Shown piece by piece: positions 3,022 to 30,075 of a DNA stretch of 30,075 bases (positions are counted from its first letter, which is position 1; each line of letters begins with the position of its first letter). The notes beneath the pieces were generated by a model. That model was not told the origin of the DNA. It did no database searches and saw only the letters and a list, made by a program, of their open reading frames with translations. Source of the stretch: a virus; the IMG/VR virus record IMGVR_UViG_3300032084_001074, positions 1 to 30,075 of that record. One strand, given 5' to 3'. Position numbers and translations under genes: made by a program.

Positions 3022-3031
3022 GTTGATTAAC

Positions 3032-8549: not shown

Positions 8550-11500
8550 ATGGTTGGAATTGGAAGAACAAGCAACGCTTTCTTTTTTGATGGTGTTAGT
8601 GATTCTATTCTGCTACCTCAAGGTAATTTTACAAGCGTTGGTCCAGCACGAGATATTCTCGGTAAAACCGGCAGTGGTAGTGATGAAATCACTGTTATCA
8701 ATTCTTTAGTCGATGACCAATTTGCTATCGAGGCTTGGGTTGTTCCCGATTGCGGTGGCGTGATTGCTCATCGTGATGACCAGTTTACACTTGAGTTTGG
8801 TACAGTCGATACGCCCGGTCCAGCCAAATTTACTGTTTTCATTCAAACCCCAAGCGGTACGCAAAAAGTAGTCCTAAGCACCGCTAAATTGACCTCCACC
8901 CGGTGGGAGGGGGTAGTGTACCCCCCACAAGAAGTTGGGGGCATACACGACACCTACAACCGCTTTTTAACGGGTAATCCACCTACCACAGAACCCAACT
9001 TGTACAACGATGCTACCAATCTTAACTTCAAGCATCGAGGTTTGTATCATGTTGTTGCCGCTGTTTCACAGCGTTCAGTATCATTGTATGTCAATGGTAA
9101 TAGGGTAGCAAGCGAGATTATTGAAAAGGATTCCAGTATTGTTAATTCAACAGCGCATGTGTATGTTGGTGGAAAGGGTGGAGAGTTCCGTGGTGCTATC
9201 GAAGCACTTCACTTTAACAGTGATTTTGATTCGGGAATGATTGATAGCACTGTGCCTGTCAACGGTGATACAACAACTGGTATGTATCGCTTTGAAGAAC
9301 CACTTGATATTGTGAGTGAGTCATACGAGTTCAATGCGTTTACTGTAGCCGCTGATGGTACGACAACTACAATCACCGTAGCCGCCACTGATGCTCAAGC
9401 CCTTATCGCTCGCTTGACTGGTAAGCCGTATGACAGCACCAGTGTCACTACTACATTCACAGCCACACCATACAGCATGGGGAACTACAAGGTGACTGAT
9501 TTTGTCACCACTCCCGGCACAGAAGCCACACTTGCTATACCACATACTCCTTATAATCTTCTCATTAACCCCGGTGCGATTAACCGGAATACGGAAAAAC
9601 CAAACGCATCTCCGCCGGAAAGAGCAAGAATAGAGTCAATAAATGGCTCGACAGGGGTAATTACTGTAAGCAGTATTCACATTGATTTTATCCTCGGCAC
9701 TGGTGGTAAGCGTGGTCTTCTTCATTCTCGTACTGCAAATGTTGACAACTATTTTGTCATTGTAAATGCTGATTTGTTGATTGACAATGGCACAGGTAGG
9801 CCGTATCAACCCCCACACTACGGTAGCCAAATCTTTGATAAAACAGGTCAAATGGTGCTTGATGAGAGTGATTTTGCTCAACATGGCTTGGTGTATTCAA
9901 CACAAATGGCTACAACGGACAACTCACCAAACAATCCGTTTGCTGTCACTTGGCCCGCTACACTCGACACTCTTTACCAAGTGGGTCACAGTGGGCGGCA
10001 CAAGTTCTCACACATCAACGGCCACGAGTACATGCGTCGTTATCCAACACCATCGTATCTCGCTATTGACCAAAAGATGGATGGTTCAGCAGATATTGTT
10101 GAAATGGTGTATGAAAACACAGGAAAGGGAATAGCGGGACTTTTTGCCATGAACGCACTATCCGATTTTTATGAAGAAAGTACACAAGTCGATGTTGCTA
10201 AGTTTAATAATTCATCTGCCGTTGATTTCGTAGTCACCAATGGACTACCAGCAAGCAAGGAACAAGCAATCGCTATTGGTGGAACTAACTTTGATTATCG
10301 CCCTTTTATGATGAAAGGACCAGTACCGGAGTATGGTGACATAGATGACGACGCTCGCTTGTATCACTTGCGACCGGAAAGCGTAAGTCGCATCGCACTG
10401 CTCAAAGTTCCTACTCTTCAAAGCACCCACAATCTTGCACCGTATGTTGAAATTCATTACAACGCCATTGACTTGACTGGTGCAAGTATGGGTAAAACAA
10501 CACCTTGCTTGATGATTGAAAAGACTGTACCGAGTGGTAATTTTGTACTCACAGGTTCAACTACGGTACTGGATGTTATCGAAGCAGATTTGGCTGATGC
10601 ATCAAAAGATACCACTCTTTTCTCACCGGGCGGAGTGTTGTTCTTGGGCTTAGGTCAAATTGCAGGGTCGGTTCATTTAGAAGAATCTCACTCCTTAGTT
10701 GGTGACAACACTGGTGGATATGAACTTGACAGTGAAGTTGATTTTAGTCTATGTCCTGTCAACTACACACCACCTAACGATGCCACGGCACAAGGTAATA
10801 CAGCCCCTCAATATCTTACTGCTTCGCACAACAATGGCATACATGATTCAGCATATCACAAATTATGCATTGAGCCAGCATCCAGTGATACTGTAAGGAA
10901 CACCACCGATACAGGCATACAATTTGTCAAAGGGGCCGCTGTCACTAATACTGGTACTGGTGTTTTTGACGAAGGCTCCACAAGCGATGCAAGCAATACC
11001 TTTGAAATGTTTGACATTATTGACAATGTTCTTGAAGATACACACGAAACTTCAATGGTAATTTATGTACAACCATCGGACAGAACAAGAATAAATCAAC
11101 TGTCAAAGATGCGTACAAACCTTACCGAAGGCGACTCACCCAGCATTGCATCGCTGTTGTTCTTGATGAGTCGTACACGCATTCGCTCAATTAAGGAAGA
11201 TGAAAACCCCGAAGACAACACTAAAATCATCACAATCACGGCGACCGGTATTGCGGAAGGACTCGCCAATCAAAATGTCAACATCACCGGTAGCGGCTCA
11301 CCCGATTCGCACATCGTCAAAGAGATTGAGCCTAACGCTCCTGTCGTCACTGTCACGCTTGGTGGACCGGGACAGGGTGCTGTCAACACCAAGCCTACCA
11401 ATGACCCCAGCCTACTGATGCGCTTACCGGGTTCAACCCGCCGCAACTGCGCTGTACAAGCCGTAAAGGTGAATACTGATACCGATAGGATTTACATGTC

Positions 11501-14500
11501 CGTTCAGCCACTCAATAACCAATCAACTGATTTGGCCTCATGGGGTACATATTGTTTTCCAAAGATAGGTCGTATTTATCTCGCAGACGGCGCAAGTGCC
11601 GCCTACAGTTCAAAAACTGGTGCTGGATTTAATTTCACTGTTGATACAAGCGGTGGACCGGGTATTTTACAGCAAAGGTCGTTTTTAGATGCAGAAGGTG
11701 TAGCGTATGCAACATTCCATGAGTGGCTAAACGCTACTGGTATTCTTGCAAATGCCACAGAAAATGAGTATGAAATAAGTGTGAAAATATACAATGACCC
11801 GGATTTCAATGATGACAACCTTTGCGAAGACGGTAGCACAGTCAATGACCGATTGTTCCAAAGTATGGACACAGTAAATCACGATTATCAACTTGGTACA
11901 CAGTATGCCAGCACTCGTGCAATGGTCGAAATCCCACTTTTCCCTAAGCAATTCTTTGACCACGCACCGGACAGCGTATTTCCCGGTCCCGATAACAGCA
12001 TGAAAATTCACCTTGATGCTACTTACACAGCCCATTCATGGAACCCCACCCCTGTAGGTCGTCGTGCAAACGATATTGCTGTAAGCGACCGTAATGCTCA
12101 TTCAGCGTATGGATTTAATGCAAATACCGACGCACATATTTCATCAGCCACCATCACTCAAATTAAAGTGAGTACAAATCATACTGATGTGTATGTATCT
12201 CATCCGAAGATATTCCCAACTGCCGAAGGTACTACTACTGCTAACGCTCATCGAAACATGAAAGATGTGACACGCTATCGTCGTGTTTTCTTGTCGAATA
12301 ACCAATGGGCAATATACATCAATGACCCTACTGTGGCTGGTGCTGGATATTTACGAATACCCACTACCGCATCCGGTGGGTTTACTGGTGGTTTTTCGGA
12401 TGATTTCTTTACCGATGCTACTGTGGGTGCTTTAGTCTATGTAGCCGGTGGTTATCGAAACGAAACACTCGTTCCTATTGCTTCGGATGTGACTACACCA
12501 TCATCCGATTATGAAGGTCGCTCACCTTACTACTACGATAACGCAAACATGCAAACTCAAGGTGGCAATCTTGATTACGGATTGCGGCAATATGTGAGTG
12601 CAGTTGAGTTCAAAGAAGGACCACTTACCAATCCCCACGCCCCTCGTATTCAATCAAAAACTGCATCTTCGACTATCTTAGAAGTGAACAAAGTGACTGA
12701 CCGTGATGGTTCGGCTGGTAATAGAGGATTTTATTATTTTACGGTTGAAGATGCGTCTGTATTCCCCGAAATTCAATTTTCTAAACAAGGGGGATATACA
12801 AGTGATTCAAATAACCCTCTTGCTGGTAAGGGTGATATGGTATTTGTAATTGAAGTTCTTGCCGATACACCGATTGAAATGATTTATCTTGGAAATATCA
12901 CAACTGCGAGTGAAACACAAAATCAATTTGTTTGTATGGCCCCTTTGAGTTTTTCAACAACAAACATGAAAGGTAAAACAATACGACTGAAAAAAGCATG
13001 TCGGGCTTTGTACACACTCACAGACCCTTTTTACGCCGACCCCTTTGAAAATATAATGACTACTTTCAAACCATCAGTGGGTGGTGAGCAATGGACATTT
13101 ACAGCGGCGGGTGCGGTAGGGGCTACCACTCTTTCTTTAGCACCCGCAACTGCTACTCTTATGCCACAGGCTAACACCGTAGGTATCAATCTCCGACCGG
13201 GTGATGAAATCTTCATGGAAGATGTAAGTGACAATAGCAACATTAAGTATGTAGGAAAGGTCGCTTTCAGTGAATCACCCCTTGCTGGTAGTGGACACGC
13301 CACAAACACAGTAATTACACTTGATACCTTTTCATTATCCACTGTAGTATCAAGTGGTTCACCTACTGCAACTGTGGCTGATACAACTAACATTCGTGTA
13401 GGTATGTCTGTAAGTGATGGAGCAACAAGAATACCAGCGGCAACAACAGTGCTTAGTATCACCAACGCAACTACTTTTGTAATGAGTGCTAATGCTTCGA
13501 GTAGTGGTACTGTCACCGGAGTTTATGGTGGCAATTCAACCACTATTGCAAGTGGTGACCCGTTGCTATTGAGTATCGGAACTGTCACTGAAAATGACCC
13601 CGATGCTGTACTCAATCGCAGTTGGTTGTACCCGTATGCTCAAGGTGGCTTACGCAATGGTGACACTGTATGGATGAACATGACAATGAACAATCCCCAT
13701 GCTGTCGAGGGGTTGTTTGCTAAGTCCCGTGGTGTGCTTAACGAAGGTCAAGTTTGGACCGGATTCAACGGCGGGCAAGGTGCTTTGGCTAACCGCCCTC
13801 GTGATTCTATACCAATTGAAAACTTCTTGATTGGTAATTCGTGTCTTGAAACTGCAAACAACTTTGTTCAACATGTAAACAAAACTATTGAGTTGAACTA
13901 CGAATCAATGGGACTATCATCATCTCAAGCACCCACTGTTGCTTACCTCGACCCATACCTTGCTAAGAAAGGACATGCACGAGTATTGATGTTCGATGTA
14001 GCGCACGACCGTGAGTTCATTGCATTCCACGATTTGCACATGCAGGTTCAATCCAGTGCCGCTACACCACACATCGGATTTGGTCGGCACATTATCACCA
14101 AAGATGGTATTGTTGACCTTGACCGATACTTAATACAACAAAACGGTGGTGCGCCACACTACTTTACTACTCAAATAGATGTAGCAAATGGTTTCCCAAG
14201 TGAAAACCCATACATGCGTAGGAACCAGCAATCCAAGTTTATTGAAAGTGCGTATGTGCATAACATAGCCGGTAATACATCCGAGGATGTGATGAGTACC
14301 AATGCTGGCGGTGAAAACCCGATTAGTAATTTCTTGACTCATGATTCTTATGCCATACCCGGAGAAGGTAAAACAAAATTAGCACTGATAGGAAACTCGT
14401 TTACTTTGGGATGCGATACAGACCATAATGCCCCTACCAGTGTATTTACAGATGCTACTGTTGATACAAACCATAACAATAGTTCGCCTTCGGCTTCGAC

Positions 14501-17500
14501 ATTTGGTGGTGGTAATGCAAAAATCCTCAAAATGGATTCAACTTCTTTACTAAGAGTAGGTATGGGTGTAAGTGGTACAGGTGTAGCAAGCGGTTCAGTT
14601 ATTACTCAAATTGACAGCGGGACTTTGTTTAGAGTGGATAAAGATACAACTGCTACAAATAATAATCAAACCATTACTTTTACACCAAATTCTCATTTAT
14701 TCGCTGGTAATCATAAAATTATACGACCTAACGGTGGTTATACAAAAATGGATAAGTTTACAGTCGGTATGACTGTAAGCGGAACGGGTATAGCGAGTGG
14801 TTCTAAAATTATTGAAATAGATACCAATGCAAGTTTGTTGTATCTTGATAAGGACACTACGGCAACCAATTCAAATCAAACATTGACCTTCATTACGACA
14901 AACAATTCGTATTTCATGGGTAAAGGTCACGGGCATTATGTTCATACCGGTCTTATGAATGAAGGGACAAGTGATTCATTCACCATTGCAGACAGTACCT
15001 TACCTCGTGTTCAACCAGCCGTAGCCTCGCCTTACTGGGCTAACCATTTACATGCCTTATCGAGAAAAACACTTGGTGCTACACAAACACTTGCTGGTGC
15101 TTTGAAGAAATCAAGATTCATTAACAACCCCGATACATTTTCGCTTCGTGATGCCAGTACAATGATGGACACACCGGATGGTACACGAGCCATTTCCGCC
15201 TTCCTTTGCTTGAAGGGTATTCGCTCACAAGCACTTACACTTGCAGACCATGAAGAAAGTCGATTGCAACATCTTGAGCATTGGACCAATATGGATTTCG
15301 TGCGCCGTCTTACCATCGACTGTGGTGAAGTAGGTATCAAAGAAGGTGTCACTGATATTGAAGCCGCCGCAAGAGAAATTGTTCGTCTTATCAATCAAGG
15401 TGGAGCCAAGAATGCACTTACTACCGGTGCAAAGGATTCCGATACGGGTTCGATATTTGACCCTGCACCGTGGTGGTTTGCTGATGAAGCACTTGATACA
15501 CAAAACCGTGGTAGTCACATGGGGTACTTGCGGGCACACTTGGGGCGTGTTGTTGAAGACCTTGATGGAAACACAGGACACTCAATTGTTATTCACTCCA
15601 CCGTACCCGGAGCCAGTGGTCGCAATTTCTGTACATGGTTGGACAACAGTAAGGGTCAATCGCAATACAAACCTCAATTCCTTGTTGGACACGGTGGGCG
15701 ATTCCGAAACTTTTGGTGTCAACCCGACGAAACTACCGGTGAGAACATGCACCCTGCGCCTATGCCTATCAACAAACACGGTAGGCCATTTGCTCCAATC
15801 ACTACACTACGGGAATATGTCACGCAAGAAGATGCTGATGATAATTTCCTAAGCAATGGTGATTTTGCTACAAGAAAGAGCAACCTATCAAATAATCAAA
15901 AGCGTAGCATATCGGCTTTCAATGGTAGTGGTATGATTGCAAACACAATCAATGATGAATCATTTGAATCTCAAAGCCCATCAAAAACTCTTGTTGAGGG
16001 ATTGAGGACAGGAACTCAAGCGTTTGGTCGAGTCAACTTTGGTGGTATGGTCGCCAGTGGTATTCCGGGTTTTGCCCCCGATGCTGGTGTGTGGGGTCTT
16101 GGTAGCCGAAGTGATGCTGGTTTGTTTGATACTCGATACTCCGATGCAATTACTACAGGCGATGCAGATACATCATCAATTCCCAATTACTCCGGTTATG
16201 TCACTGATTCTCAAGTTGATAATGTGGGTGACTCACAACTGTATGGATTCCAATTTGAAGACCATCGTGGAAATACATACGGCGTGAGGTTCATTTATCG
16301 CAGAATGGGTGACAACTTTAGCAATGATAATACAGCCTTACCCCCTACTCTCGACAATGAAATATGTGTGTATTTCGATGACCGAGATGTAGGGCAGGGT
16401 GGACTTACCATTGGTAATCACATGCTTGGATTTGGTGATGCTACTGGTCGAATTGATACCACGGGTGTACTCACAGAAGCATCATACCGTGGTAATCGCT
16501 GGAATGGCGTACCTGCGCCTTCTGTTGGTATTGATGCAAGTATTACACTCACATCGAGTCAACTTACTGTCGTGCTTCATCCACCGTTTGACACTGGTAC
16601 TGTTGGTGACGGAGTAGTAGGTAATCACCCCGATGTACTTGGTTATCTTGGGTTCCCTAAAACAAACGGCTTGATTCAAATTAACGACCCCTTCACTGGT
16701 ACTACAGCACCGGGGGCTGTTGGGAATACCTTTTCTTACACTCATCGTAGTCAAAATGATAATGATGGTACGCATATTTTCTATGGTGTAAGCGGTGATG
16801 GTTTTACCTCTTCGCACTATGTTGCAAACACCGCCGAAGGAACTGAAATTCATGATGTGGCAACAGTGCAACCTCACGCAAGCAATAACTCAATGCGTGT
16901 TTTACTTTCACCACGAATTAACTGGACAACACTTGTGACTGATGAATTGATGGCGGCTGTGACAGCGGCGGCGATTAACCATACCAGCCCAAGTAGCACA
17001 CTCAACTTTGATTGTCGAGGAATGTATGCCGCTGATGGAAGAACATTCGGACAATGGGGAGTAGCCGGTGACGCTATCAAAATACGGGCACATAACCCCT
17101 TTAGAAACACAAAACCCCTTGCAAACATGTTTGAGGCTACGCTACACAAAGATTGGGGTATTCATGCCGCTCATCTTGAATATGGTGAATACACAACTCT
17201 CAAACCCACTACTGCTGGTTGGGCTATTACATCCACCGATGCAATCAACAAACCATACAGTGATAATGAACTTGATGCAAACCGTCGAATGGATGTAGGC
17301 TACCTCCCATACACTGTACTACAATTACGAAGTAAGGGTCGAGGTTATAATGCAAATACAGCCACACCTGTCTTGGTTGATTCGGCTAACACCCCCGTAT
17401 CAGTTAATTCTTGGCGAAGAAACCTCAAAGGAGAAGATTACACTTCAATAAATGGCGACCATATTCTGCCTTGTTTAAATAATCCAATTTTATTGTTTGA

Positions 17501-20500
17501 ATCATACACTCACTCCGGCAATGTATTCCTTTCAAAAACCAATAAAATTGCACATGTTATGATTCCCGCTGGACAAGAAGCAGATGCTTTGGGTGATGCT
17601 GATGATGCCGACACTCACGCCAAAGCCCCTTCATTTGGTGAGATAATGACATTCCGATACCCTACTGCTACAGGAATTGGAGTAGCAGGGTTAGAATCAA
17701 TCAAGGGTGCTACTTCTCACACCTCTTTAACAAACCCCTATGGTGATGGACATAGTTTTTGGAAGACTCATTTCTATCAAGACATTACTGATGATTTCGT
17801 ACTCACTCGTTTCAGTCTAACTAATTTTGCCAACATAGAGTTCGAGGCTATATGTGGTTATCGTTCACACGGTAGCGTTGACAGTGAGCCTATCATTTAC
17901 TTCCGTGGTGCGAGGGACAGCATAGACCACAGCATACCATTGTACTTCGGTGGTGGATTCAGTGGTGTCACGCTTGACATTAACGATGGTACACAAAACG
18001 ATTACTCGTCATTCTATACCCATCCTTACTCCGGTGGACCTACTGGTACTGCTGGTATTCAAAACGCCAATGAAATCAGCGGGTCATTCGCTATGGTGGA
18101 TTGTAATGCACTGCTCGCTTTCTTCCCCGGTACAGCCCTACTCAATCAACACCGAGGCTCAATCAACAGTCCGGTGTCTAACAAGAACAGCATCCTATCG
18201 CCCGACCTACGGGGCGGCAACTTGGATGACAACTTTGCTTTATTGAATGCGGCGGCGGCTGGTGATGTACGAGCAAGATACTCCGCAGGTATTGTTCGCC
18301 AACAGCCTGTACCGTTGGTGCTTCGCTTTGCTCATCCTACTGCTCGCTACCACGACAGCCAGCCTATTGTTGACGCAACCTGTGATTATAACAATGACCC
18401 AACGATTACAATGGATTCGACAGCCCAACTTGTTGTAGGAATGACGGTCACCGGTACAGGCATTCCCGATGGGGCTACAGTAGCATCCATTACCAACGCT
18501 ACTACATTTGAGTTATCGGTGGCTACTACTGGCGGCTCGGTTTCAAACGGTACTTTAACATTCAATTACATTGAAAACAAAACCACCTACCTTGTCTATG
18601 GCCCCGGTCAAGCATTCCCATTCACCGAAGACGACAACTCCAATGCGGCTGTCGAGCCACACCCCGGATATGTCGTCACTACCGGCAACACTTGGAGCAA
18701 AGTACCTCACAGCAAGTACCTACCAAATGAAATTACCAACAGTGACAATTTGTACGGCCCACCCGATTCGGCTTACCAAACCGCAAGAAACCGCTATCAC
18801 TGGCGCACCACACTCAACTGGTCACCACCGCAGGGTATTCCAAATGTGGGCTACCTACAACAGCGACCCGAACACGGTTCCCACTATGGTGAAGTATTTA
18901 CCAACCCGACAAGTGGTAAAATTACCAGTGATAATAAAGGAGATTATTGGAAGGCCCACCCGTACAAACACAGTGCAACTGCCTACTATGGTATTGCCAT
19001 GAGTGCGGATATGACCTTCCACATGGACGGCGGCTACCACCCCGGCGGTTCGTGGTTGGACAACCAAGTTTCCTTCAACCCACCAAATCCAAACAGCAAC
19101 TACCGCTATGCTTTGGAAGCGTGGAACCAAGTCAACGCTACTGCTTATCGTGTATCGGGAGTAATGGGTAAAGCCATCCTTGAAGGTGCGAACAGTGAAA
19201 CTGCGCTTAACTTTGACACTGATTATATTGTAGTTGACGGTACACGCTGTCAAAATGGCGAAGAACTGGCGACTATCATCGGTCAAGCAATCAACGAAAA
19301 CCCCGGTAAAGGCGCACTTAAAGCAATGGGTGGTACATTCCTACCATCTATGGGTAATGCATCTCGACAAGACCGCTATGGTTGGGTTGAAATGACATTT
19401 GAAGCGTACACCAATGCCGCAAGTACAGGACCAACTGTTAATGCAGATACGCTGATTGGTAATCTTTATGCTGGGACTTTGGGAACTGCCATTAACTCAA
19501 GAAATTACATTCAAGCAAGTATCAGTGGTGCTACTCAAGAAGAATTAGAACAATTACCTATGAGTGGGTGGGTGCGTACACCTACTGGTGGTCGTGACCA
19601 TACAGTAGGTGGAGGGCATAGTGACCCCTCTTATCACGCTGGACCAACATGGGGATGTTATCATAGTCGAGAGGTATTCAGTGACAGTGGTACTTTCAAA
19701 GTGCGGTTTTACCTTGCACCAAATCGTATCAGTGGTTTACCCTTACTTGAAGACCGTACAACTTGGCATAATAAATGTCAAGGTGCTACTTTGACTTACC
19801 CAAGTCCGGGTCATGTTATCGACCCTAACCCACCAAGTCAACCCGAACCTATTGAATATCCACTTCCATCTCAATTGTATGTATGGTCAAAGGCTGGTGT
19901 TCACCGCTTCAATAACGAAAACGAAACACCTCGTAGTCACATGACCCAAGCACACTTTGGTGGGCTGGTGGATGCTATTGACCGTACACGCCCTGTAGGA
20001 GCCGTAGGATGGGCGGGAGAGCGTTATTCTTACCTCAACTCCCTCAAGGTCGATACAAGCGCATTTACCGATGCTACCTGTGACTACAACAACGACCCTA
20101 CTATTGCAATGGATTCAACTGCAAAATTGAAGGTTGGTATGTTAGTGAGTGGAACTGGTATTCCTACAGGTGCTTATGTTCGTAGCATCACCAGTAGCAC
20201 TGGATTTGAGTTGTCGGCATCAACAACAGGAGGTTCTGTGACAAACGGTACACTCACTTTCACTACGAATCTTTACGCCGCCGGAAAAGGTGCTTGGCAT
20301 CCTAAAATGGGATTCACCCCATACGGCTCATCAGCCTCATGTATGAGTACATTAGGTCACTTGCCAAGTTCATACCCAATGTACAACAGTCCCGAATCAA
20401 GCCCAAGAGTCAACGGGCAAGAAGCATCGAATACATCATACGATGTTGCCCTCACCACCCCGTACACTTGGAACATTGGTTTGGCTGGAAATGCTTCGTG

Positions 20501-23500: not shown

Positions 23501-26500
23501 CGACCTATACTCCGAGATTCTTGAGAACATCAGCCTCACGCCCGTGTGTACTTTTGTAAGCCTTACATCGAGTACAGTCATAAAAGTTGATGATGCTCGT
23601 GGTTTCCCTAAGCAACCCTACTACGGTATGTTGCTTGAGTACACAGACGCTACAGGTACACGACGAACTCATTCTTACACTGAAAGAAGCGGTTATGATT
23701 CAAGCAACATGAACAAACCACTACAATTTACCATTGTAGCCAATAGTGATTTTACCAGCAACTTAACCGTTGGGACAAAGATTCGCTTGACTCGTGCATA
23801 CGACTTCCGACCAGCAAATACGATTTTAAGTGAAACTGAAACAAGTGTTTTGGCTCACTCTATTGATAATTTGATTACGGGTACTCGTGACACAAACAGC
23901 CTACACATGGCTGATGCATTCCTTTGCCTATGGCATCCAAATCTTGGTCGCCCCCACACCTTTTACAGTGATGCAAGTCGAACATGGTTAAACCCATTGA
24001 CTGACCGAGCCATCAATCAAAAACCACTCAACAGTATGCCGGAACACTTTGAAACTGTTCACTACCATGACGCTACCTATTACGCCAGCATGGGTCCGTT
24101 TGCTTTGCGAATGAAGACAGCCATGCCTCCTACCGAAGCACAATCAACATACTACACCGCTACATCAGCAAGTGTGAGTAGCACCACGGTCACCGCTACT
24201 GGAACTATCATGGCTGGATGGCCTACGAGTGGTACAAACACAGTGTATGTCAACAGTGGTAGTGAAGAAGAAATCTTCACATACACAGGCGGTGGTGCTG
24301 GTGGTACAACATTGACAGGGTGTGTTAATGTCAAGGGTACACCGTTGACAACTATGGCAAGTGGGAATCATTCACTGCGCTACTACAAGACCGCTGACCT
24401 TGCCGCTGATGGTTCACATACTCGTCAAGTAGTATCTCAAACCGCTGACCACACAATTACAACAAACGGTGGTGAAGGTATTGGAGATGGGGCTTACATC
24501 TTTGTTGACGGTCACATGTATCAAGTCAATGGTACTGTAGCAGAAGGAGGTACGAACATAGTAGTGTTTGATATTTTACCACCTCAAATTACTGTAGGCT
24601 CGGTCATATACACAGGTGCAGACGGTACACCTCAAACTGCTCAAACCATTGACACCACAATAGGAACAGGACTTATGCAAGGTGGACAATCGGACAGCAG
24701 TGATACAGCCACCAAGAGTATGCTCAATCACTTTTGGCCGAGTGGTAGCCGTGGTGGACCACTGGTGAGCCGTCTTGATGGCTACGCCTATGTTTCATCG
24801 TCTTGGGAATACCCACGGGATTACGGCTTTGACGGGCCAATTTGGACCGATGGTGACTATGATGCTGATAACAGTGATTATGCACCGAGTAGTGGTATCA
24901 GCAAGTCATCGTATGATGGCATCAGCAACCCAACACGGCCACGCCCATTCGGTTATCGCTTTGGCCTACGCCAACCATACAACAAGCCGCAGTGGTCTAT
25001 GTACGGTTTGCGAGCATTGCGTGAAACAGCAATAACAGCAACCAACGCCAGCGTTGCGTACAAGCATGGTCCGTTTGTACAAGAAGAAACTCAAACATGG
25101 ACTTACGCTGGCGGCAACGGTAGTTCAAACCCAACATTCCCTAACACATACACTGGTATTATGGAACGACAAACTAACTTCTCCGGTATGCTCGGCGTTG
25201 ACAAACCGGAATGGCAAGTTCGGTACAGCGACGGTGTACGCTTCACCCGCCCGTTCGGATGCCCTGTACGCACCCTACGCAACAGTGCTACTGTACTGCG
25301 TGATTGGTGGGGCGATGGCAACGGTAAGGGCTTGGACTCGATTGAGAGTGCGGCAAAATACTACCTCGTTGATTGGTGGGGCAACACCCGTGGTGAAGAT
25401 GTTCGCCGCTTCCCTGTCCGTTCATTCGGTATTCGCCCATCATGGGATGCGGGTGACGCATACGAGTATGACCGACGCAACAACCGTACACCGTATCAGC
25501 GAATACACAACAACGGAAAGCACCTTGTCAACTTGAAGGGACTTACCAATGCGGCAGACTCGGCATTGGATATTTCAGCGACCGTACCGAGATTTGGTGG
25601 TCGGTTAAACAACACCAATAGTAGTGACTCAACAACACTGGTTGATGTGTTCATGCCATCAAACGCACAGCGTGTGGGTGACATGGGTAATGGTCGAGGT
25701 ATTCGATACCCAACTCAATTCAACGAAGATGTACTCACCGCATTGAGTGAACCAATACACACCACGGGTCTTGTCCTCTCTCATCACACCGCCGAGCCTA
25801 TCCTCAATGATGGATTTATTCGTGCAAGAAACGATACACTGCAAGCCGATGAAGTACCTCGTGGTATCAGTTCACGCTTGGAGATTGCAGAAGATGGACT
25901 ACTCAAGCCCGAAGCAGTAGTGAGTGACCGCATGGAGAACATCGTTGGTGACTCACCTCACAAGGATGCTATAAGCCGCAGTAGCCCCCGTATCGGTCTT
26001 GACACCGAAAACCTACAAGGTGTGGACACCAATCAAATCATCATTAACACCGAGGCGCACAGCCTACACACAGACCGCAATGTAGGACAGCGTGTTGTGC
26101 TACAGGGCGGTATGCAAACTGGCTCTCAAACTATAGGCAACTACGACCTCACTGCACTCGACTTCGGAGGGCAACCTCAAGGCGGTGTGTTGCGTATGAG
26201 TCACACCTCAAACTTCAACCCGCTTGGTGGTACTTACCTCGCTGAAACCCGCAACTATCTTTCACCTATTGACGACACTGAATGGGGAGGCATACCAACA
26301 TCGGGTATGGTGTTGTGGCTTAAAGCCGACAGCCTCGATTTGACTGATGGTGAAAGTGTATCAACATGGGCTGATACGAGTGGAAATAATCGAAACTTTA
26401 CTCAATCTACAAGTAGTAAAAAGCCAACATATATCGCAAGTGAATCCGATTTTAATAACATGCCTGTGTTAAGATTTGATGGTGGAGATAAACTTGAATT

Positions 26501-27629
26501 GGCTTTCGATGCTAATTTGAATACAAATCAATTTACAATATTTTTCGTAGGTGCTGTGAACAGTGATAACAATGCTAATCAATTAGGTTATGAAAGTAGA
26601 AGTGCCTCTCCTGTCACGAGGTCGGGGTACAATCTATATGCCGATATGACAGGTTCAAATAATCAATGGGAGTATTGGGCTGGTGCTGATACAACTTGGA
26701 AAGCGTTGAAATCTGCTACGGGTTCTATTACACTCAACACACCCGACATCATCACCATGCAAATAAGCGGTGGTGATGGCGCAGGTGCTTCTGCTACTCA
26801 ATTGCTAAGGGTAGATGGTACTCAAATAGGCACTCAATCTGCTAATTTTTACAAATCAACGGCTGATGCACAAAACATAGGTACATTAAACACATCATCA
26901 GCACCGTATGTGGGTGAGATTGCTGAAATTATTCAATTCAATAGAGCATTAAGCACTACAGAACTACAACAAGTTGAAGGTTATCTTGCCGAAAAGTATG
27001 GTATCACTGCGGCATCTGCGTGGAAGTCCAGCAACCCATACCAAACGGACACTAACGGACATGTGCGTACAAATGTGACAGATAAGAAGGTCACATACAT
27101 GATGCGCCCAGTTCGATTACTGGACAAACAACACGCTGAAATGTTCCGTTCCAACCTCAACTTGCACTCATCAGCCCCGCAGTATGGTAGCAATTACTTC
27201 GGTGCTACCGCTGGCGGAAAGTATGGGCTTTATGTGTATGATGTGGATAACGGTAAGGCATCGGTTGGTTCGTACATTCGTGCCACCAACCCCGACACTA
27301 ACCCACCTTACACACCTGCGTATTACATGGACATTAGCGCAAGTGACACCGTACCTATGAGTCAAGGACCAAAGATTATCGGAACGGGCGATAGCGGCTT
27401 TGATAGCAGTAAAATTGACAATGAAGTCACTCGTGTAATTATCAGTGAAAATACTTTGGAACATTATCGTGCTGACGCATCACGCCGTCGCACATCCGTG
27501 GAAAGCGATGAGAGCGTTGTCCGTAAGGACTTCACCGTACAACCACGCTTCTCCCAATCCCTTCATCCAAAAGGACATAAAGGAGATGTTGACTACAATT
27601 CAACGGACCACACAGGTGATGGCGCATGA
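8550..27629 (+). CDS. Giant mosaic tail-tip / fibre protein (6,359 aa)
   Basis: One unbroken frame of 19,080 bases, about 0.7 MDa. No enzyme domain, signal peptide or membrane span is evident. Residues about 10-255 are LamG-like (FDGV ... FAIEAWVVPD ... VSLYVNGNRV ... IEALHF). Residues about 5918-6155 are a second, AT-rich LamG-like domain (GMVLWLKADS ... GEIAEIIQFNRALS). Five VGMxVSGTGI modules lie near residues 1601-1661, 1966-2044, 2064-2114, 3275-3338 and 3839-3904. Two YTGxxxxxLTGC-like modules lie near 4500-4580 and 5206-5272. The rest is Asn/Thr/Gly/His-rich beta sequence, poor in Cys. Its place after the distal-tail-like gene is that of the tail-tip or central-fibre protein, so host-surface binding is the likely role. 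The last base pairs overlap the next start (ATGA). A giant baseplate scaffold is the alternative. The frame is certain; the role is inferred. Confidence 0.8.
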   Translation: MVGIGRTSNAFFFDGVSDSILLPQGNFTSVGPARDILGKTGSGSDEITVINSLVDDQFAIEAWVVPDCGGVIAHRDDQFTLEFGTVDTPGPAKFTVFIQTPSGTQKVVLSTAKLTSTRWEGVVYPPQEVGGIHDTYNRFLTGNPPTTEPNLYNDATNLNFKHRGLYHVVAAVSQRSVSLYVNGNRVASEIIEKDSSIVNSTAHVYVGGKGGEFRGAIEALHFNSDFDSGMIDSTVPVNGDTTTGMYRFEEPLDIVSESYEFNAFTVAADGTTTTITVAATDAQALIARLTGKPYDSTSVTTTFTATPYSMGNYKVTDFVTTPGTEATLAIPHTPYNLLINPGAINRNTEKPNASPPERARIESINGSTGVITVSSIHIDFILGTGGKRGLLHSRTANVDNYFVIVNADLLIDNGTGRPYQPPHYGSQIFDKTGQMVLDESDFAQHGLVYSTQMATTDNSPNNPFAVTWPATLDTLYQVGHSGRHKFSHINGHEYMRRYPTPSYLAIDQKMDGSADIVEMVYENTGKGIAGLFAMNALSDFYEESTQVDVAKFNNSSAVDFVVTNGLPASKEQAIAIGGTNFDYRPFMMKGPVPEYGDIDDDARLYHLRPESVSRIALLKVPTLQSTHNLAPYVEIHYNAIDLTGASMGKTTPCLMIEKTVPSGNFVLTGSTTVLDVIEADLADASKDTTLFSPGGVLFLGLGQIAGSVHLEESHSLVGDNTGGYELDSEVDFSLCPVNYTPPNDATAQGNTAPQYLTASHNNGIHDSAYHKLCIEPASSDTVRNTTDTGIQFVKGAAVTNTGTGVFDEGSTSDASNTFEMFDIIDNVLEDTHETSMVIYVQPSDRTRINQLSKMRTNLTEGDSPSIASLLFLMSRTRIRSIKEDENPEDNTKIITITATGIAEGLANQNVNITGSGSPDSHIVKEIEPNAPVVTVTLGGPGQGAVNTKPTNDPSLLMRLPGSTRRNCAVQAVKVNTDTDRIYMSVQPLNNQSTDLASWGTYCFPKIGRIYLADGASAAYSSKTGAGFNFTVDTSGGPGILQQRSFLDAEGVAYATFHEWLNATGILANATENEYEISVKIYNDPDFNDDNLCEDGSTVNDRLFQSMDTVNHDYQLGTQYASTRAMVEIPLFPKQFFDHAPDSVFPGPDNSMKIHLDATYTAHSWNPTPVGRRANDIAVSDRNAHSAYGFNANTDAHISSATITQIKVSTNHTDVYVSHPKIFPTAEGTTTANAHRNMKDVTRYRRVFLSNNQWAIYINDPTVAGAGYLRIPTTASGGFTGGFSDDFFTDATVGALVYVAGGYRNETLVPIASDVTTPSSDYEGRSPYYYDNANMQTQGGNLDYGLRQYVSAVEFKEGPLTNPHAPRIQSKTASSTILEVNKVTDRDGSAGNRGFYYFTVEDASVFPEIQFSKQGGYTSDSNNPLAGKGDMVFVIEVLADTPIEMIYLGNITTASETQNQFVCMAPLSFSTTNMKGKTIRLKKACRALYTLTDPFYADPFENIMTTFKPSVGGEQWTFTAAGAVGATTLSLAPATATLMPQANTVGINLRPGDEIFMEDVSDNSNIKYVGKVAFSESPLAGSGHATNTVITLDTFSLSTVVSSGSPTATVADTTNIRVGMSVSDGATRIPAATTVLSITNATTFVMSANASSSGTVTGVYGGNSTTIASGDPLLLSIGTVTENDPDAVLNRSWLYPYAQGGLRNGDTVWMNMTMNNPHAVEGLFAKSRGVLNEGQVWTGFNGGQGALANRPRDSIPIENFLIGNSCLETANNFVQHVNKTIELNYESMGLSSSQAPTVAYLDPYLAKKGHARVLMFDVAHDREFIAFHDLHMQVQSSAATPHIGFGRHIITKDGIVDLDRYLIQQNGGAPHYFTTQIDVANGFPSENPYMRRNQQSKFIESAYVHNIAGNTSEDVMSTNAGGENPISNFLTHDSYAIPGEGKTKLALIGNSFTLGCDTDHNAPTSVFTDATVDTNHNNSSPSASTFGGGNAKILKMDSTSLLRVGMGVSGTGVASGSVITQIDSGTLFRVDKDTTATNNNQTITFTPNSHLFAGNHKIIRPNGGYTKMDKFTVGMTVSGTGIASGSKIIEIDTNASLLYLDKDTTATNSNQTLTFITTNNSYFMGKGHGHYVHTGLMNEGTSDSFTIADSTLPRVQPAVASPYWANHLHALSRKTLGATQTLAGALKKSRFINNPDTFSLRDASTMMDTPDGTRAISAFLCLKGIRSQALTLADHEESRLQHLEHWTNMDFVRRLTIDCGEVGIKEGVTDIEAAAREIVRLINQGGAKNALTTGAKDSDTGSIFDPAPWWFADEALDTQNRGSHMGYLRAHLGRVVEDLDGNTGHSIVIHSTVPGASGRNFCTWLDNSKGQSQYKPQFLVGHGGRFRNFWCQPDETTGENMHPAPMPINKHGRPFAPITTLREYVTQEDADDNFLSNGDFATRKSNLSNNQKRSISAFNGSGMIANTINDESFESQSPSKTLVEGLRTGTQAFGRVNFGGMVASGIPGFAPDAGVWGLGSRSDAGLFDTRYSDAITTGDADTSSIPNYSGYVTDSQVDNVGDSQLYGFQFEDHRGNTYGVRFIYRRMGDNFSNDNTALPPTLDNEICVYFDDRDVGQGGLTIGNHMLGFGDATGRIDTTGVLTEASYRGNRWNGVPAPSVGIDASITLTSSQLTVVLHPPFDTGTVGDGVVGNHPDVLGYLGFPKTNGLIQINDPFTGTTAPGAVGNTFSYTHRSQNDNDGTHIFYGVSGDGFTSSHYVANTAEGTEIHDVATVQPHASNNSMRVLLSPRINWTTLVTDELMAAVTAAAINHTSPSSTLNFDCRGMYAADGRTFGQWGVAGDAIKIRAHNPFRNTKPLANMFEATLHKDWGIHAAHLEYGEYTTLKPTTAGWAITSTDAINKPYSDNELDANRRMDVGYLPYTVLQLRSKGRGYNANTATPVLVDSANTPVSVNSWRRNLKGEDYTSINGDHILPCLNNPILLFESYTHSGNVFLSKTNKIAHVMIPAGQEADALGDADDADTHAKAPSFGEIMTFRYPTATGIGVAGLESIKGATSHTSLTNPYGDGHSFWKTHFYQDITDDFVLTRFSLTNFANIEFEAICGYRSHGSVDSEPIIYFRGARDSIDHSIPLYFGGGFSGVTLDINDGTQNDYSSFYTHPYSGGPTGTAGIQNANEISGSFAMVDCNALLAFFPGTALLNQHRGSINSPVSNKNSILSPDLRGGNLDDNFALLNAAAAGDVRARYSAGIVRQQPVPLVLRFAHPTARYHDSQPIVDATCDYNNDPTITMDSTAQLVVGMTVTGTGIPDGATVASITNATTFELSVATTGGSVSNGTLTFNYIENKTTYLVYGPGQAFPFTEDDNSNAAVEPHPGYVVTTGNTWSKVPHSKYLPNEITNSDNLYGPPDSAYQTARNRYHWRTTLNWSPPQGIPNVGYLQQRPEHGSHYGEVFTNPTSGKITSDNKGDYWKAHPYKHSATAYYGIAMSADMTFHMDGGYHPGGSWLDNQVSFNPPNPNSNYRYALEAWNQVNATAYRVSGVMGKAILEGANSETALNFDTDYIVVDGTRCQNGEELATIIGQAINENPGKGALKAMGGTFLPSMGNASRQDRYGWVEMTFEAYTNAASTGPTVNADTLIGNLYAGTLGTAINSRNYIQASISGATQEELEQLPMSGWVRTPTGGRDHTVGGGHSDPSYHAGPTWGCYHSREVFSDSGTFKVRFYLAPNRISGLPLLEDRTTWHNKCQGATLTYPSPGHVIDPNPPSQPEPIEYPLPSQLYVWSKAGVHRFNNENETPRSHMTQAHFGGLVDAIDRTRPVGAVGWAGERYSYLNSLKVDTSAFTDATCDYNNDPTIAMDSTAKLKVGMLVSGTGIPTGAYVRSITSSTGFELSASTTGGSVTNGTLTFTTNLYAAGKGAWHPKMGFTPYGSSASCMSTLGHLPSSYPMYNSPESSPRVNGQEASNTSYDVALTTPYTWNIGLAGNASWYTNYDFTDVESAKDIFSAKPAHMREIDTDTNFVLNPKLHHQQGVFSRAMLVISNESELALVAKTDRDGIKSTGDWLSVVSKTRAGVAAATAITFAGTTRWDERFHNAERYIAPANAGPNVEALIATGTATPTADVPNGAYVLHTALTGDQDTNLFNAEPCFAETGDLFFDTDISPGSVQLEVATDVLRNITKELTIASADAEIDNYDYTETTVDGVTGPEFWLGDTNGYKLAQRTPAKNFSVEHVVWKRMDGGNLSLPASNARGLGAVPFVTRVAGGNAYTTGEKLYGNNRFTFESTNSAMFPIIQAQELSHPQLAARHPDLLRNILEIPNEEIQFESITVIDDTGQEHKIEGGSPFGTIIRTFTQLSDRGAQGLAPAVSGSGISPNLKIRLPDPDSIPGNLVIRSGFDRLQAYQTESMGTGGMMTKSTVEHLFNTDSVSPNLGPTYSDHNWEHLKQGIDSPESTMSGWQSSTGNAPLETAYELHDRTLYFHVTKMGNTNTHKHPVIYSHADGVVNHELTGVSFSGTTLTVNTTVNSAVYDSTFGNKERVGERRFLRLYNPTTDEGGVASFTGISGSTFTGCVGDETFNKLVLSSITALKVVPSYYIPAGSTRFYGSRRIRDHAEVSGNSPDMAHTHYVNYSVTAEEAMTGYSIYSKPQLTPAPIPRMGHHFVNATMAMLPGHWAHPAYQGLYDKHRACRSATLQSREFEILKESYDMDDLITSTPDQFPTYDPLLVFGSLTATPSGPSDIHGGGFSLMFETKLRNDGYGVLASEGQAGVVNAAGGHTIVLEAAGTYTLKEHFPDPAEVGAYQIIIQPNMHSSQFIGYHENGPANDIPNQSVNELTSQQVALVVGIREPDATTGAYSLVLANATMADVRGCEVFINELMIDHDPDHGSHFTNIPPLMLYNPLGVQSTESPAFVRRSLPYTTGIFADASPGYTINIPWWSIVHKVGPDDADGSRFNHLSLHRLDNYYEFLRANAGSVAAQITLAGYPSNYPDLYSEILENISLTPVCTFVSLTSSTVIKVDDARGFPKQPYYGMLLEYTDATGTRRTHSYTERSGYDSSNMNKPLQFTIVANSDFTSNLTVGTKIRLTRAYDFRPANTILSETETSVLAHSIDNLITGTRDTNSLHMADAFLCLWHPNLGRPHTFYSDASRTWLNPLTDRAINQKPLNSMPEHFETVHYHDATYYASMGPFALRMKTAMPPTEAQSTYYTATSASVSSTTVTATGTIMAGWPTSGTNTVYVNSGSEEEIFTYTGGGAGGTTLTGCVNVKGTPLTTMASGNHSLRYYKTADLAADGSHTRQVVSQTADHTITTNGGEGIGDGAYIFVDGHMYQVNGTVAEGGTNIVVFDILPPQITVGSVIYTGADGTPQTAQTIDTTIGTGLMQGGQSDSSDTATKSMLNHFWPSGSRGGPLVSRLDGYAYVSSSWEYPRDYGFDGPIWTDGDYDADNSDYAPSSGISKSSYDGISNPTRPRPFGYRFGLRQPYNKPQWSMYGLRALRETAITATNASVAYKHGPFVQEETQTWTYAGGNGSSNPTFPNTYTGIMERQTNFSGMLGVDKPEWQVRYSDGVRFTRPFGCPVRTLRNSATVLRDWWGDGNGKGLDSIESAAKYYLVDWWGNTRGEDVRRFPVRSFGIRPSWDAGDAYEYDRRNNRTPYQRIHNNGKHLVNLKGLTNAADSALDISATVPRFGGRLNNTNSSDSTTLVDVFMPSNAQRVGDMGNGRGIRYPTQFNEDVLTALSEPIHTTGLVLSHHTAEPILNDGFIRARNDTLQADEVPRGISSRLEIAEDGLLKPEAVVSDRMENIVGDSPHKDAISRSSPRIGLDTENLQGVDTNQIIINTEAHSLHTDRNVGQRVVLQGGMQTGSQTIGNYDLTALDFGGQPQGGVLRMSHTSNFNPLGGTYLAETRNYLSPIDDTEWGGIPTSGMVLWLKADSLDLTDGESVSTWADTSGNNRNFTQSTSSKKPTYIASESDFNNMPVLRFDGGDKLELAFDANLNTNQFTIFFVGAVNSDNNANQLGYESRSASPVTRSGYNLYADMTGSNNQWEYWAGADTTWKALKSATGSITLNTPDIITMQISGGDGAGASATQLLRVDGTQIGTQSANFYKSTADAQNIGTLNTSSAPYVGEIAEIIQFNRALSTTELQQVEGYLAEKYGITAASAWKSSNPYQTDTNGHVRTNVTDKKVTYMMRPVRLLDKQHAEMFRSNLNLHSSAPQYGSNYFGATAGGKYGLYVYDVDNGKASVGSYIRATNPDTNPPYTPAYYMDISASDTVPMSQGPKIIGTGDSGFDSSKIDNEVTRVIISENTLEHYRADASRRRTSVESDESVVRKDFTVQPRFSQSLHPKGHKGDVDYNSTDHTGDGA
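8577..9314 (+). other. N-terminal LamG/concanavalin-like lectin domain of the giant protein
   Basis: Residues 10-255 follow the LamG order: FFFDGVSDSI, FAIEAWVVPD, GVIAHRDDQFTLEF, a HVVAAV strand, SLYVNGNRVASEII, and HVYVGGKGGEFRGAIEALHF. Such jelly-roll domains often bind glycans. This is a call from the motif order. Confidence 0.7.
8893..8941 (+). other. G/C-run cluster with overlapping inverted repeats inside the giant gene
   Basis: GGGGGTA (8909-8915) and TACCCCC (8919-8925) are perfect inverted repeats with a 3-base loop. CCCCCA (8922-8927) can instead pair with TGGGGG (8936-8941). CCTCC (8893-8897) can pair with GGAGG (8906-8910). These structures are partly exclusive. They lie about 340 bases into the reading frame. 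Confidence 0.55.
13350..13532 (+). repeat. GTGI-type beta module, giant protein copy 1 (diverged)
   Basis: Codes TTNIRVGMSVSDGATRIP, then SITNATTFVMSANASSS. It shares the VGM-x-VS core and the SITNATTF strand with copy 4 but lacks the GTGI string. Confidence 0.6.
14445..14681 (+). repeat. GTGI beta module, giant protein copy 2 (tandem)
   Basis: Codes FTDATVDTNHN, then MDSTSLLRVGMGVSGTGV, then TTATNNNQTITF. Its opening and ending closely match the tail tube copy. The region is AT-rich: the line 14641-14700 has 15 G/C of 60. Confidence 0.8.
14739..14891 (+). repeat. GTGI beta module, giant protein copy 3 (tandem)
   Basis: Codes MDKFTVGMTVSGTGIASGSK, then LDKDTTATNSNQTLTF. It follows copy 2 after 57 bases and lacks the FTDAT opening. 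Lines 14641-14880 total 80 G/C of 240 (33%). Confidence 0.8.
18372..18563 (+). repeat. GTGI beta module, giant protein copy 4
   Basis: Codes DATCDYNNDPTITMDSTA, then VGMTVTGTGIPDGATV and SITNATTFELSVATTGG. It is GC-rich for a module (34 of 60 in line 18421-18480), unlike copies 2 and 3. Confidence 0.8.
20064..20261 (+). repeat. GTGI beta module, giant protein copy 5
   Basis: Codes FTDATCDYNNDPTIAMDSTA, then VGMLVSGTGIPTGAYV, ending TNGTLTF. It is the closest relative of copy 4; the openings DATCDYNNDPTI are identical. Confidence 0.8.
22050..22290 (+). repeat. FTGC-type beta module, giant protein
   Basis: Codes LTGVSFSGTTLTVNTTV, then GVASFTGISGSTFTGCVGDE. The strand-turn-FTGC ending matches the module in the connector-like protein and the one at 24165. 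Confidence 0.5.
24165..24366 (+). repeat. FTGC-type beta module, giant protein second copy
   Basis: Codes SASVSSTTVTATGTIMAGW, then EEEIFTYTGGG and TTLTGCVNVKGTPLTTMASG. The layout is like residues 345-400 of the connector-like protein (FRYTGKTATSFTGCVAVTG). Confidence 0.55.
26301..27014 (+). other. C-terminal AT-rich LamG-like cassette of the giant protein
   Basis: Residues about 5918-6155: GMVLWLKADSLDLTDG, TWADTSGNNRNF, LRFDGGDKLEL, FTIFFVGAV, and GEIAEIIQFNRALSTTELQQ leading to VEGYLAEKYG, the usual ending of LamG-like (Laminin_G_3-type) domains. Lines 26401-26580 have 59 G/C of 180 (33%), against 58% at 25201-25260 and 52% at 27121-27180. Confidence 0.75.
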
Positions 27630-27961
27630 CGGATTACGATTTTTGTAATTGTTGCTCACCTGCTGACCTTGCTTTCGCTGTAATAAAAGCCAAAAAAGAG
27701 AAACCATTCCACGGCTACAATCCAAACAAGCACAGCAAAAAAGGTGGACTGAACGCTAAAGGCCGTGCCGCCGCCAAGCGTAAGAGCGGAGCAAACCTCA
27801 AACCCCCTGTAACGACTAAACCGAGCAAACTTAAACCCGGCTCGAAAAAGGCTAAGAGGCGAAAGTCTTTTTGCGCTCGAATGAGTGGCATGAAAGGAGC
27901 AACCAGCAAGAAGGGTAAACTTACTCCTAAAGGCGCATCACTAAAAAGGTGGAATTGTTAA
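27626..27961 (+). CDS. Small basic Cys protein of the SFCARM/DUF6321-like family (111 aa)
   Basis: Thirty of 111 residues are Lys or Arg by my count. Residues 36-60 (HSKKGGLNAKGRAAAKRKSG and on) and 74-111 (KRRKSFCARMSGMKG ... LKRWNC) match a small conserved family I recall from marine phages and large DNA viruses as DUF6321, function unknown. That name is from memory. The N-terminus has a C7-x-C9-C10 cluster, and C83 and C111 lie in the conserved part, so metal binding or disulphides are possible. LAFAVIKA at 15-22 weakly resembles the AWxxLKA motif of the two following genes. Its charge suggests nucleic-acid contact. It starts in an ATGA overlap with the giant gene and ends in TAATG with the next. 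Confidence 0.75.
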   Translation: MTDYDFCNCCSPADLAFAVIKAKKEKPFHGYNPNKHSKKGGLNAKGRAAAKRKSGANLKPPVTTKPSKLKPGSKKAKRRKSFCARMSGMKGATSKKGKLTPKGASLKRWNC

Positions 27962-28608: not shown

Positions 28609-28622
28609 TCATGAGGCTTGAT

Positions 28623-29241: not shown

Positions 29242-30075
29242 ATGGTGGTAATCAAGAACACAGTTGTTGGTCGTTTCAATACCGACATGCCCGCAGTGAT
29301 GGACCATGTGCGTAAGCCAGTGTTTGTTGACAACGCCGTTCATCATGCAAAGGTGGACACGAGTACAGGCGTACAGGCGAAGGTCACTATTGAAAACAGC
29401 AACGCATCCACCTTCCAAGTCATGCCCGAAACTCGCTATCAAATCGTTGAGGGTGAGTCGTCAATTCAAATCACACATAAAGAAACTCCGGGCCACAGTA
29501 GTACCGCAGTACCCTTTTTAGGCGACAATGTATTGAGTTCAACCAACAAACCAATGCTTGTTTACAACGCCGACAACCCAGCCCAACGCTTGGTGACCTC
29601 AACGCTTGAGTCAAGCACTGTTGGTATCTTAATGAACTTAAGAAATATGAAAGGTAAAACACTTAACGACCTCGGCTTCTTTGAGCGTGAAGTTAAGTTG
29701 GGACAGCCGATTGATGTTGGTCTTCGTACTACCGACATGGCGATTCGCTTAGGTCAACAGGCTACTACGAGCATGAACAGTTTCAACATTGGCCGCAACA
29801 TGGCCGCTACAAACAACAACAATGGTCGAAGAATGCACTCCAATCGTTTCCTCGGTCAAGACTTCGCTAATGTCAACTTGATGACAGCACTGCGTTTCAT
29901 TGGACGACACGACAGCCGTATGGTGTTGATGGACCGGTTTGGTAATATGCTCTATGTACCTATCACATTCAGTGAAGCCACTGCTACAGTGGATGCTGAC
30001 TTCCACTTTGGCTCGACCCGCACAGACCCCGTGGACAACACACCCAATCGAATCACAGTACAAGGACAACCAATG
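29242..30075 (+). CDS. Baseplate/hub-like protein, cut by the window end (first 278 aa)
   Basis: Starts at ATG 29242, one base after the previous stop, with the protein beginning MVVIKNTVVGRFNTDMPAVM. The frame stays open to the last base, so the C-terminus is missing. Residues 1-140 are beta-rich (VQAKVTIENSNASTFQV, YQIVEGESSIQITHKETPG). Residues 200-278 include LMTALRFIGRHDSRMVLMDR, FGNMLYVPITFSEAT and PNRITVQGQPM. A helix, a short RFGNMLYVP strand and an NRITVxG ending recall baseplate hub and late-control-like proteins, where a similar NRVxVxG strand is usual. That is pattern memory, and position downstream of tail genes agrees. A minor tail protein is the alternative. Confidence 0.7.
   Translation, partial: MVVIKNTVVGRFNTDMPAVMDHVRKPVFVDNAVHHAKVDTSTGVQAKVTIENSNASTFQVMPETRYQIVEGESSIQITHKETPGHSSTAVPFLGDNVLSSTNKPMLVYNADNPAQRLVTSTLESSTVGILMNLRNMKGKTLNDLGFFEREVKLGQPIDVGLRTTDMAIRLGQQATTSMNSFNIGRNMAATNNNNGRRMHSNRFLGQDFANVNLMTALRFIGRHDSRMVLMDRFGNMLYVPITFSEATATVDADFHFGSTRTDPVDNTPNRITVQGQPM

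Follow-up and report, generated by a model that had tools for sequence, protein, structure and literature searches.

The stretch of DNA analysed here (the window) is an entire IMG/VR record of 30,075 bases, itself a fragment, as the genome measures 107.6 kb or more. Most of it is taken up by a single gene on the plus strand, an intact frame that opens with ATG at position 8550, ends at 27629 and encodes 6,359 residues (687.8 kDa), hereafter the giant protein. The first-pass annotation of this DNA had described an unbroken frame of 6,359 residues filling 63% of the window and about 18 times longer than a tape measure of 344 residues, and we obtain the same picture (6,359 codons, 63.4% of the window and a length ratio of 18.5 to the ORF at 6313-7347); in the genome of at least 107.6 kb the giant gene makes up 17.7%. 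The annotation had also placed it beside the tape measure, whose identity stands (phrog_1535, E 2.9e-27), but the two are not direct neighbours, as a gene of 397 aa (p397) lies between them (Table 1).

Table 1. Genes and protein features in the window, with the evidence for each assignment.
Feature	Position	Strand	Evidence and remarks
Tail tube protein, 729 aa	3023..5212	+	PF18906 E 1e-5 (25.7 bits; cut-off 27); one ~55-aa module
Small conserved gene, tail-assembly-chaperone position	5661..6035	+	Position only
Second small conserved gene, tail-assembly-chaperone position	6032..6316	+	Position only
Tape measure protein, 344 aa	6313..7347	+	phrog_1535 E 2.9e-27; 57-base (19-aa) tandem repeat
397-aa protein (p397), between tape measure and giant	7347..8540	+	Conserved; 375-488 aa in gene-order survey
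Giant gene, putative tail tip, 6,359 aa, 688 kDa	8550..27629	+	ORF and relatives
N-terminal LamG (concanavalin-like), giant aa ~7-235	8568..9254	+	PF13385 E 5e-6 (27.2 bits; cut-off 27.6)
Tail-hub/tail-tube-like fold, within giant aa ~486-902	10005..11255	+	Fold search with model of aa 486-1400
~55-aa module, copy 1, aa 1605-1654	13362..13511	+	
~55-aa module, copy 2, aa 1991-2045	14520..14684	+	
~55-aa module, copy 3, aa 2069-2114	14754..14891	+	
~55-aa module, copy 4, aa 3283-3339	18396..18566	+	
~55-aa module, copy 5, aa 3849-3905	20094..20264	+	
C-terminal LamG insert, aa 5977-6139	26478..26966	+	PF13385 E 1.7e-4 (under curated cut-off); phrog_10356 E 3.6e-24
DUF6321 protein, directly downstream of giant	27626..27961	+	PF19846 E 7.2e-17
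Further conserved gene, start only	29242..30075	+	472 aa in 107.6-kb contig

Relatives of the giant gene are numerous: a search with aa 1001-2200 returned 67 loci, and the alignment of aa 4001-5200 (alignment A3), used as a query, retrieved 360 related stretches, with the top 80 listed. A single uninterrupted frame of 5,109-6,359 aa is present in all 27 relatives extracted at full length (13 of 13 records in a set that includes the window's own virus, and 14 of 14 in a set that contains look-alikes, three of 5,567 aa and two of 5,517 aa), which is a biased rate, as these relatives were picked from long contigs already seen with long frames. In a 28-row alignment of giants, 906 columns are invariant and 4,654 are more than 90% occupied. 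The frame is interrupted in at least two other records: locus L009 carries a frameshift at giant aa ~3805-3821, beside a ~55-aa module, and contig 3300038530_002887 holds the giant as two frames; that of L102 is probably interrupted as well. A frame split among relatives had been proposed at the outset as evidence that would speak against the tail-tip reading, and, these interruptions notwithstanding, the full-length relatives give it no support.

An open frame of such length would arise by chance with a probability of about 10^-155 at the base composition of the window, and fusion during assembly is rejected on account of the 27 single-frame relatives. When the window was compared with four relatives in bins of 200 aa, dN was lower than dS in every bin, and in most far lower, the least clear bins being those of L009, which was covered up to aa 3800 and has diverged very little (e.g., 0.028 against 0.039). 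Taken with the single frames of the full-length relatives, this indicates that the giant is a real gene under purifying selection. The aa 4001-5200 stretch is found, whole or in part, in 29 of 41 polymerase-bearing contigs of the same clade. That the giant might be missing from some of these viruses was considered and not upheld: of the 12 contigs with no match, the check covered the two longest (82.8 and 71.3 kb, both cut at an end; the other ten measure 14.8-43.2 kb), and one of them ends inside the giant gene, with its last 526 aa present, and the other upstream of it. The giant is typical of a clade and not peculiar to the window's virus. That these two long contigs, G049 and G054, end where they do looks as though the repeated modules of the giant gene hindered assembly.

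The virus itself can be placed through a contig of 107,632 bases (3300031957_001682, G001), which encodes a 6,359-aa protein 100% identical to that of the window. By Pfam, this contig carries a family-B DNA polymerase (PF00136), a TCP1/cpn60 chaperonin, an HMG-CoA-lyase-like protein and a clamp-loader-like ATPase, together with virion genes for a terminase, a portal and an SU10-type capsid protein; on its gene map, replication and virion genes are oppositely transcribed. Among NCBIfam models, the chaperonin is best matched by the thermosome and passes the thermosome_beta cut-off, and the clamp-loader-like ATPase is best matched by the RFC small subunit at a score under the curated cut-off; a putative sliding-clamp gene has no match in Pfam or NCBIfam. 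PF00136 is found in 8 of 13 giant-bearing records. A family-B polymerase and archaeal-type replication factors, among others, belong to the magrovirus gene set (PMC12999244, PMC10768690), and the gene content of the 107.6-kb contig identifies the window as a fragment of a magrovirus-like archaeal tailed virus (order Magrovirales). A chaperonin gene and opposed transcription of replication and virion genes are magrovirus traits as well.

The chaperonin narrows this placement. It occurs in 24 of 29 giant-bearing records (the five with no match are all shorter than 71 kb), and each copy reaches 227-445 bits against the thermosome model but no more than 65 against GroEL, although none of the 24 passes the curated thermosome_arch cut-off. 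Among the viruses of Marine Group II (MGII) described in PMC5332604, every one of the 18 in clade 1 encodes a thermosome, and 20 from clades 2-4 encode GroEL. As all 24 chaperonins are far better matched as thermosomes than as GroEL, the window's virus appears to belong with the thermosome-bearing viruses of MGII, which makes Poseidoniales (MGII) its putative host. The sole relative among genome contigs sits in a bacterial MAG, where it was probably mis-binned.

Around the giant gene, the relatives keep one order wherever loci reach far enough upstream: tail tube, a SAP-domain gene, two small genes, tape measure, a gene of about 400 aa, and the giant. Gaps in this survey are confined to one small gene that was unrecognised in several loci and to the tape measure of L072. 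Survey of related viral contigs for the same gene order had been suggested with the first-pass annotation, and its outcome supports the tip position that the annotation gave to the giant, shortly after the tape measure, the place of tail hub genes, with one gene between. The intervening gene is itself conserved (381-429 aa, directly upstream of the giant in 14 of 14 full-length records) and p397 has no known family in PHROGs or Pfam. Complete tube ORFs among the relatives span 617-787 aa. The tape measure of the window also matches many other tape-measure families in PHROGs; across 78 loci, 59 complete tape-measure ORFs were recognised by motif, 58 of them of 334-667 aa and one of an apparent 236 aa, and the gene-order survey includes lengths down to 330 aa. 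Downstream, a DUF6321 protein is present in 7 of the 13 full-length records, one of these being the window's virus. In three loci (L083, L084 and L085), where no DUF6321 relative was found, a relative of 556-594 aa of the 472-aa gene starts 4 bases before the end of the giant gene.

The closest characterised system is the Haloarcula virus HVTV-1 (Druskaviridae), whose tail is described as non-contractile and 73 ± 5 nm long in PMC4284463. Its tail tube (gp128) is related to that of the window (hhalign probability 96.1% over residues 139-326), as is its tape measure (gp131, 96.8%), the latter over its C-terminal ~80 residues only (390-471); the best reversed-sequence control for these matches reached 6.6%. 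PMC8651126 describes Druskaviridae capsid proteins as interspersed among those of magroviruses, in agreement with this kinship of tube and tape measure. Scaling by the HVTV-1 ratio (a 480-residue tape measure for 73 nm, or 0.152 nm per residue) predicts a tail of ~52 nm for 344 residues, in line with the short tail of about 50 nm proposed in the first annotation. The genes that follow the HVTV-1 tape measure include a LamG protein, gp137 (57.9 bits), and in this the two viruses are alike. In contrast to the window, however, HVTV-1 has seven ordinary genes at this place (gp132-gp138, 151-524 aa), none of giant size, among them gp136, annotated as tail baseplate; with hhalign, none of gp132-gp138 matched p397 or the 21 of 41 giant segments tested. 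An origin of the giant by fusion of HVTV-1 or HF2 proteins was likewise not upheld: comparison of 15 proteins and their reversals with 21 of the 41 giant segments and with alignments of p397, tube, tape measure and p278, a weak test with single sequences on one side, returned only the match between tape measures, over the C-terminal ~80 residues, and that between tubes.

Predicted models cover aa 1-1150 and aa 486-1400 of the giant. The AlphaFold model of the former (mean pLDDT 66) has its best PDB match at Z 14.9 (rmsd 2.8 Å over 194 residues), and its matches are mostly chains of PAPP-A, pentraxin, laminin, neurexin and sialidase carbohydrate-binding modules (CBM), which indicates that the N-terminus of the giant has a LamG jelly-roll fold; these lists are largely driven by LamG and carry little information on the rest of the model. 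A second LamG, assigned from its sequence, is predicted near the C-terminus, where it occupies a slot (~aa 5905-6157) that holds a LamG in the window and in two relatives tested (PF13385 E 5.4e-5 and 2.7e-5, under the curated cut-off), a ~55-aa module in some other giants and little in the rest. The LamG ends of the first annotation thus hold at the N-terminus, but the C-terminal one is a variable insert, absent from many relatives, and not a fixed end. Only this C-terminal LamG region was found in phage isolates by tblastn, namely in cyanophage KBS-S-2A (two records) and PA-SR01.

Between the two LamG regions, the repeated modules announced in the first annotation are indeed there, in the form of five copies of a ~55-aa module, which ranges from 0 to 8 copies in 12 other giants counted. 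Internal self-comparison of 25 of the 41 starting segments recovered these modules, a possible divergent copy near aa 5199-5250 (91.8%) and some weaker matches. One copy also lies in the tail tube protein (aa 88-141, window 3284-3445), which points to an exposed virion surface.

The model of aa 486-1400 has a mean pLDDT of 65.6, approaching 90 at aa ~545-700, and its best match is 3d37_A, a tail protein of Neisseria meningitidis (Z 9.2, rmsd 1.7 Å, 76 residues), the sole chain at Z ≥ 8 among 992. It is followed at rank 2 by the monocin tail tube 8qhs_A (Z 7.0, rmsd 2.9 Å, 95 residues) and at rank 4 by the monocin cap (Z 6.8). With the tool used, models that lack a clear match commonly reach a top Z of 7-8, and 9.2 is only modestly above it; that tail proteins take ranks 1, 2 and 4 in a search of the whole PDB nevertheless suggests, though it does not prove, a hub- or tube-like fold, and we propose such a stretch within aa ~486-902 on moderate evidence. 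We take 3d37 to be a hub of the Mu gp44 and T4 gp27 kind. Most rows of the same search pair aa ~1191-1302 locally with ATP synthase chains, a similarity that we regard as chance. In a library of viral models, the model of aa 486-1400 retrieved three unnamed entries at 9-10% identity beyond a member of its own family. UniProt A0A1B1IU10 (BFVD model) is 46% identical to the giant over the modelled aa 1-1150 (E 0) and is evidently a deposited member of the family, so that at least one is in UniProt; it carries no name or function in the tables searched.

Outside the LamG domains, the modules and the hub-like stretch, the giant has no trusted match in Pfam, PHROGs or PDB sequences. At the sequence level, no PDB match is significant, neither for the giant (best E 0.53, to a laminin domain, with alignment A1) nor across alignments A1-A6 (best E 0.13, for A6). 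PHROGs searches with 31 members of A3, 40 of A1 and 42 of A2 gave scattered weak matches, none significant, the best being 'head closure Hc2' at E 0.0024 in 2 of the 42 members of A2. The earlier statement that the protein contains no recognisable enzyme agrees with our Pfam and PHROGs scans.

The giant is conserved along its whole length rather than hypervariable. Compared with L076, the giant of the window differs little at its ends (dS of about 0.1-0.36 in most bins) and much over aa ~1000-3200 (dS of 0.4-2.1), and the C-terminal slot is strongly different, for which the simplest reading is that a central segment and the insert were exchanged, rather than that they evolved fast by point mutation; no comparable central block is seen between L009 and the window. 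Conservation of the giant exceeds that of the tape measure and of p397 in 11 of 11 pairs, as in one pair with 84% in the giant against 69% and 53%, and in the three most distant pairs, with 42-43% against 31-37% and 30-32%, respectively. It is about level with the tube in these pairs and less conserved than the upstream 150-aa gene in all of them; it is also less conserved than DUF6321 in the five pairs that have the latter (L077, L078, L080, L081 and L082), four of which were compared at 82-92%. Conservation as even as this suggests a scaffold role for most of the chain, and leaves the inserts in the slots, the LamG domains and the exchanged central segment as the best candidates for parts that confer host specificity.

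We consider it probable (about 65%) that the giant forms the tail tip of an archaeal virus of the magrovirus type with a non-contractile tail, and consists of a hub fused to a giant extension with receptor-binding domains. The hub domain would dock on the end of the ~52-nm tail, next to p397, and probably as a trimer; the remaining ~5,000 residues would form a large tip structure, whose LamG domains and ~55-aa modules would bind sugars or proteins on the host surface. One polypeptide would then stand in for several of the genes that follow the tape measure in HVTV-1, and the viral thermosome may assist its folding. The intact frame, the single frames of the 27 full-length relatives, the conserved order and the matches of tube and tape measure to HVTV-1 speak for a tail tip, as do the LamG fold (Z 14.9), the hub/tube match (Z 9.2), the module shared with the tube and the excess of dS over dN. 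Phage tail hubs such as 3d37 and siphophage tip proteins, of which Tal and lambda gpJ are examples, are similarly encoded shortly after the tape measure and, if the putative hub-like stretch of the giant is one, similarly join a hub-like N-terminal part to a long extension; in the giant, however, a LamG precedes the hub-like stretch, sequence similarity to them is not detectable, and the chain is several times longer than that of lambda gpJ (~1,100 aa).

Against this reading, the hub match spans only 76-95 residues of a model with a mean pLDDT of 65.6, has no counterpart in a sequence match to a hub or PDB entry, and none of the giant segments tested matched HVTV-1 or HF2. p397, whose length lies in the ordinary range for hub and Dit proteins and which directly follows the tape measure, could be the hub instead; the giant would then be merely attached, as a peripheral tail fibre or side adhesin, for which the LamG at the N-terminus and the lack of sequence-level hub similarity also speak. 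The restriction of the tape-measure match to the C-terminus, together with the size of p397, slightly weakens the tail-tip reading and slightly strengthens this one. Leaving LamG aside, the giant nonetheless finds its closest fold match in a tail protein and the next in a tail tube, and a fibre should be most variable distally, whereas the giant is evenly conserved, a property that is unlike a typical host-range fibre and so counts against a tail tip as well. On balance we regard a side adhesin as unlikely, though it is the rival to be taken most seriously.

That the product is a polyprotein, cut by a viral or host protease into several tip proteins, would accord with its occupying the place of seven separate HVTV-1 genes and with its alternation of strongly conserved blocks and variable stretches; yet none of the 27 full-length relatives has separate genes in its stead and no protease domain was found in the giant by Pfam and PHROGs scans, so that we hold this to be improbable. 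More improbable still, to the point of being hardly credible, is a head decoration, internal or capsid protein, a reading prompted by the filing of phrog_10356 under 'head and packaging': this family matches the C-terminal LamG insert, which many relatives lack, and both the gene order and the non-LamG fold matches are those of a tail. A fold match to a capsid or internal protein had been named beforehand as evidence against a tail tip, and the best non-LamG match, of moderate strength, is to a phage tail protein.

If the giant is a tail-tip protein, it is one of extraordinary size, and viruses of uncultured archaea that abound in the ocean seem to make the end of a short tail chiefly out of a single protein of ~5,100-6,360 aa; its retention as a single gene among relatives hints at a host-contact structure of uncommon size that has yet to be seen. 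One could go further and propose a new type of tail end, in which a single chain of ~0.7 MDa (~2 MDa if a trimer) caps the tube with its hub and a conserved core of ~4,650 residues forms, as one piece, the tip that several gene products make elsewhere; LamG domains and ~55-aa modules would replace one another at recurring slots, and the thermosome, encoded not far away, may help in folding. We put this proposal forward tentatively and consider it rather doubtful in its entirety. A protein of nearly 700 kDa, encoded by about one sixth of the genome, points to the machine by which these viruses would bind their archaeal hosts. The reading predicts a short tail with an outsized tip, visible by electron microscopy, and offers the giant as a ready marker for the clade. 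No published description was found in the literature searched, which did not extend to key magrovirus papers, so that a prior mention is possible; a Laminin_G_3 gene listed among magrovirus auxiliary metabolic genes in PMC10160649 is possibly the giant.

Three observations concern the remainder of the genome. The thermosome gene (L088:5185-6687 and relatives) faces the tail module and lies 4.8 kb past the giant in the 107.6-kb contig, and about 4-18 kb past it among the records compared; it may be a folding helper for the giant, and shows a chaperonin of a virus encoded close to a presumed virion protein of extreme size. Near the capsid genes lies another long gene, of 1,978 aa (L089:13459-19395, minus strand), which has counterparts of 1,916 and 1,933 aa in two other records compared and no Pfam match at E 0.01. 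Finally, of 91 non-overlapping ORFs in the 107.6-kb contig, 7 contain an AWxLLK-type motif, five times within the first 15 residues (mean 0.27 and maximum 2 in 200 shuffles); it also occurs in the window in the ORFs at 27949-28608 (aa 12), 28611-29240 (aa 10) and 1-624 (aa ~103); its strict form is also present in three of nine other loci scanned (L131, L138 and L140), and the motif might serve these proteins as a common signal for docking or packaging.
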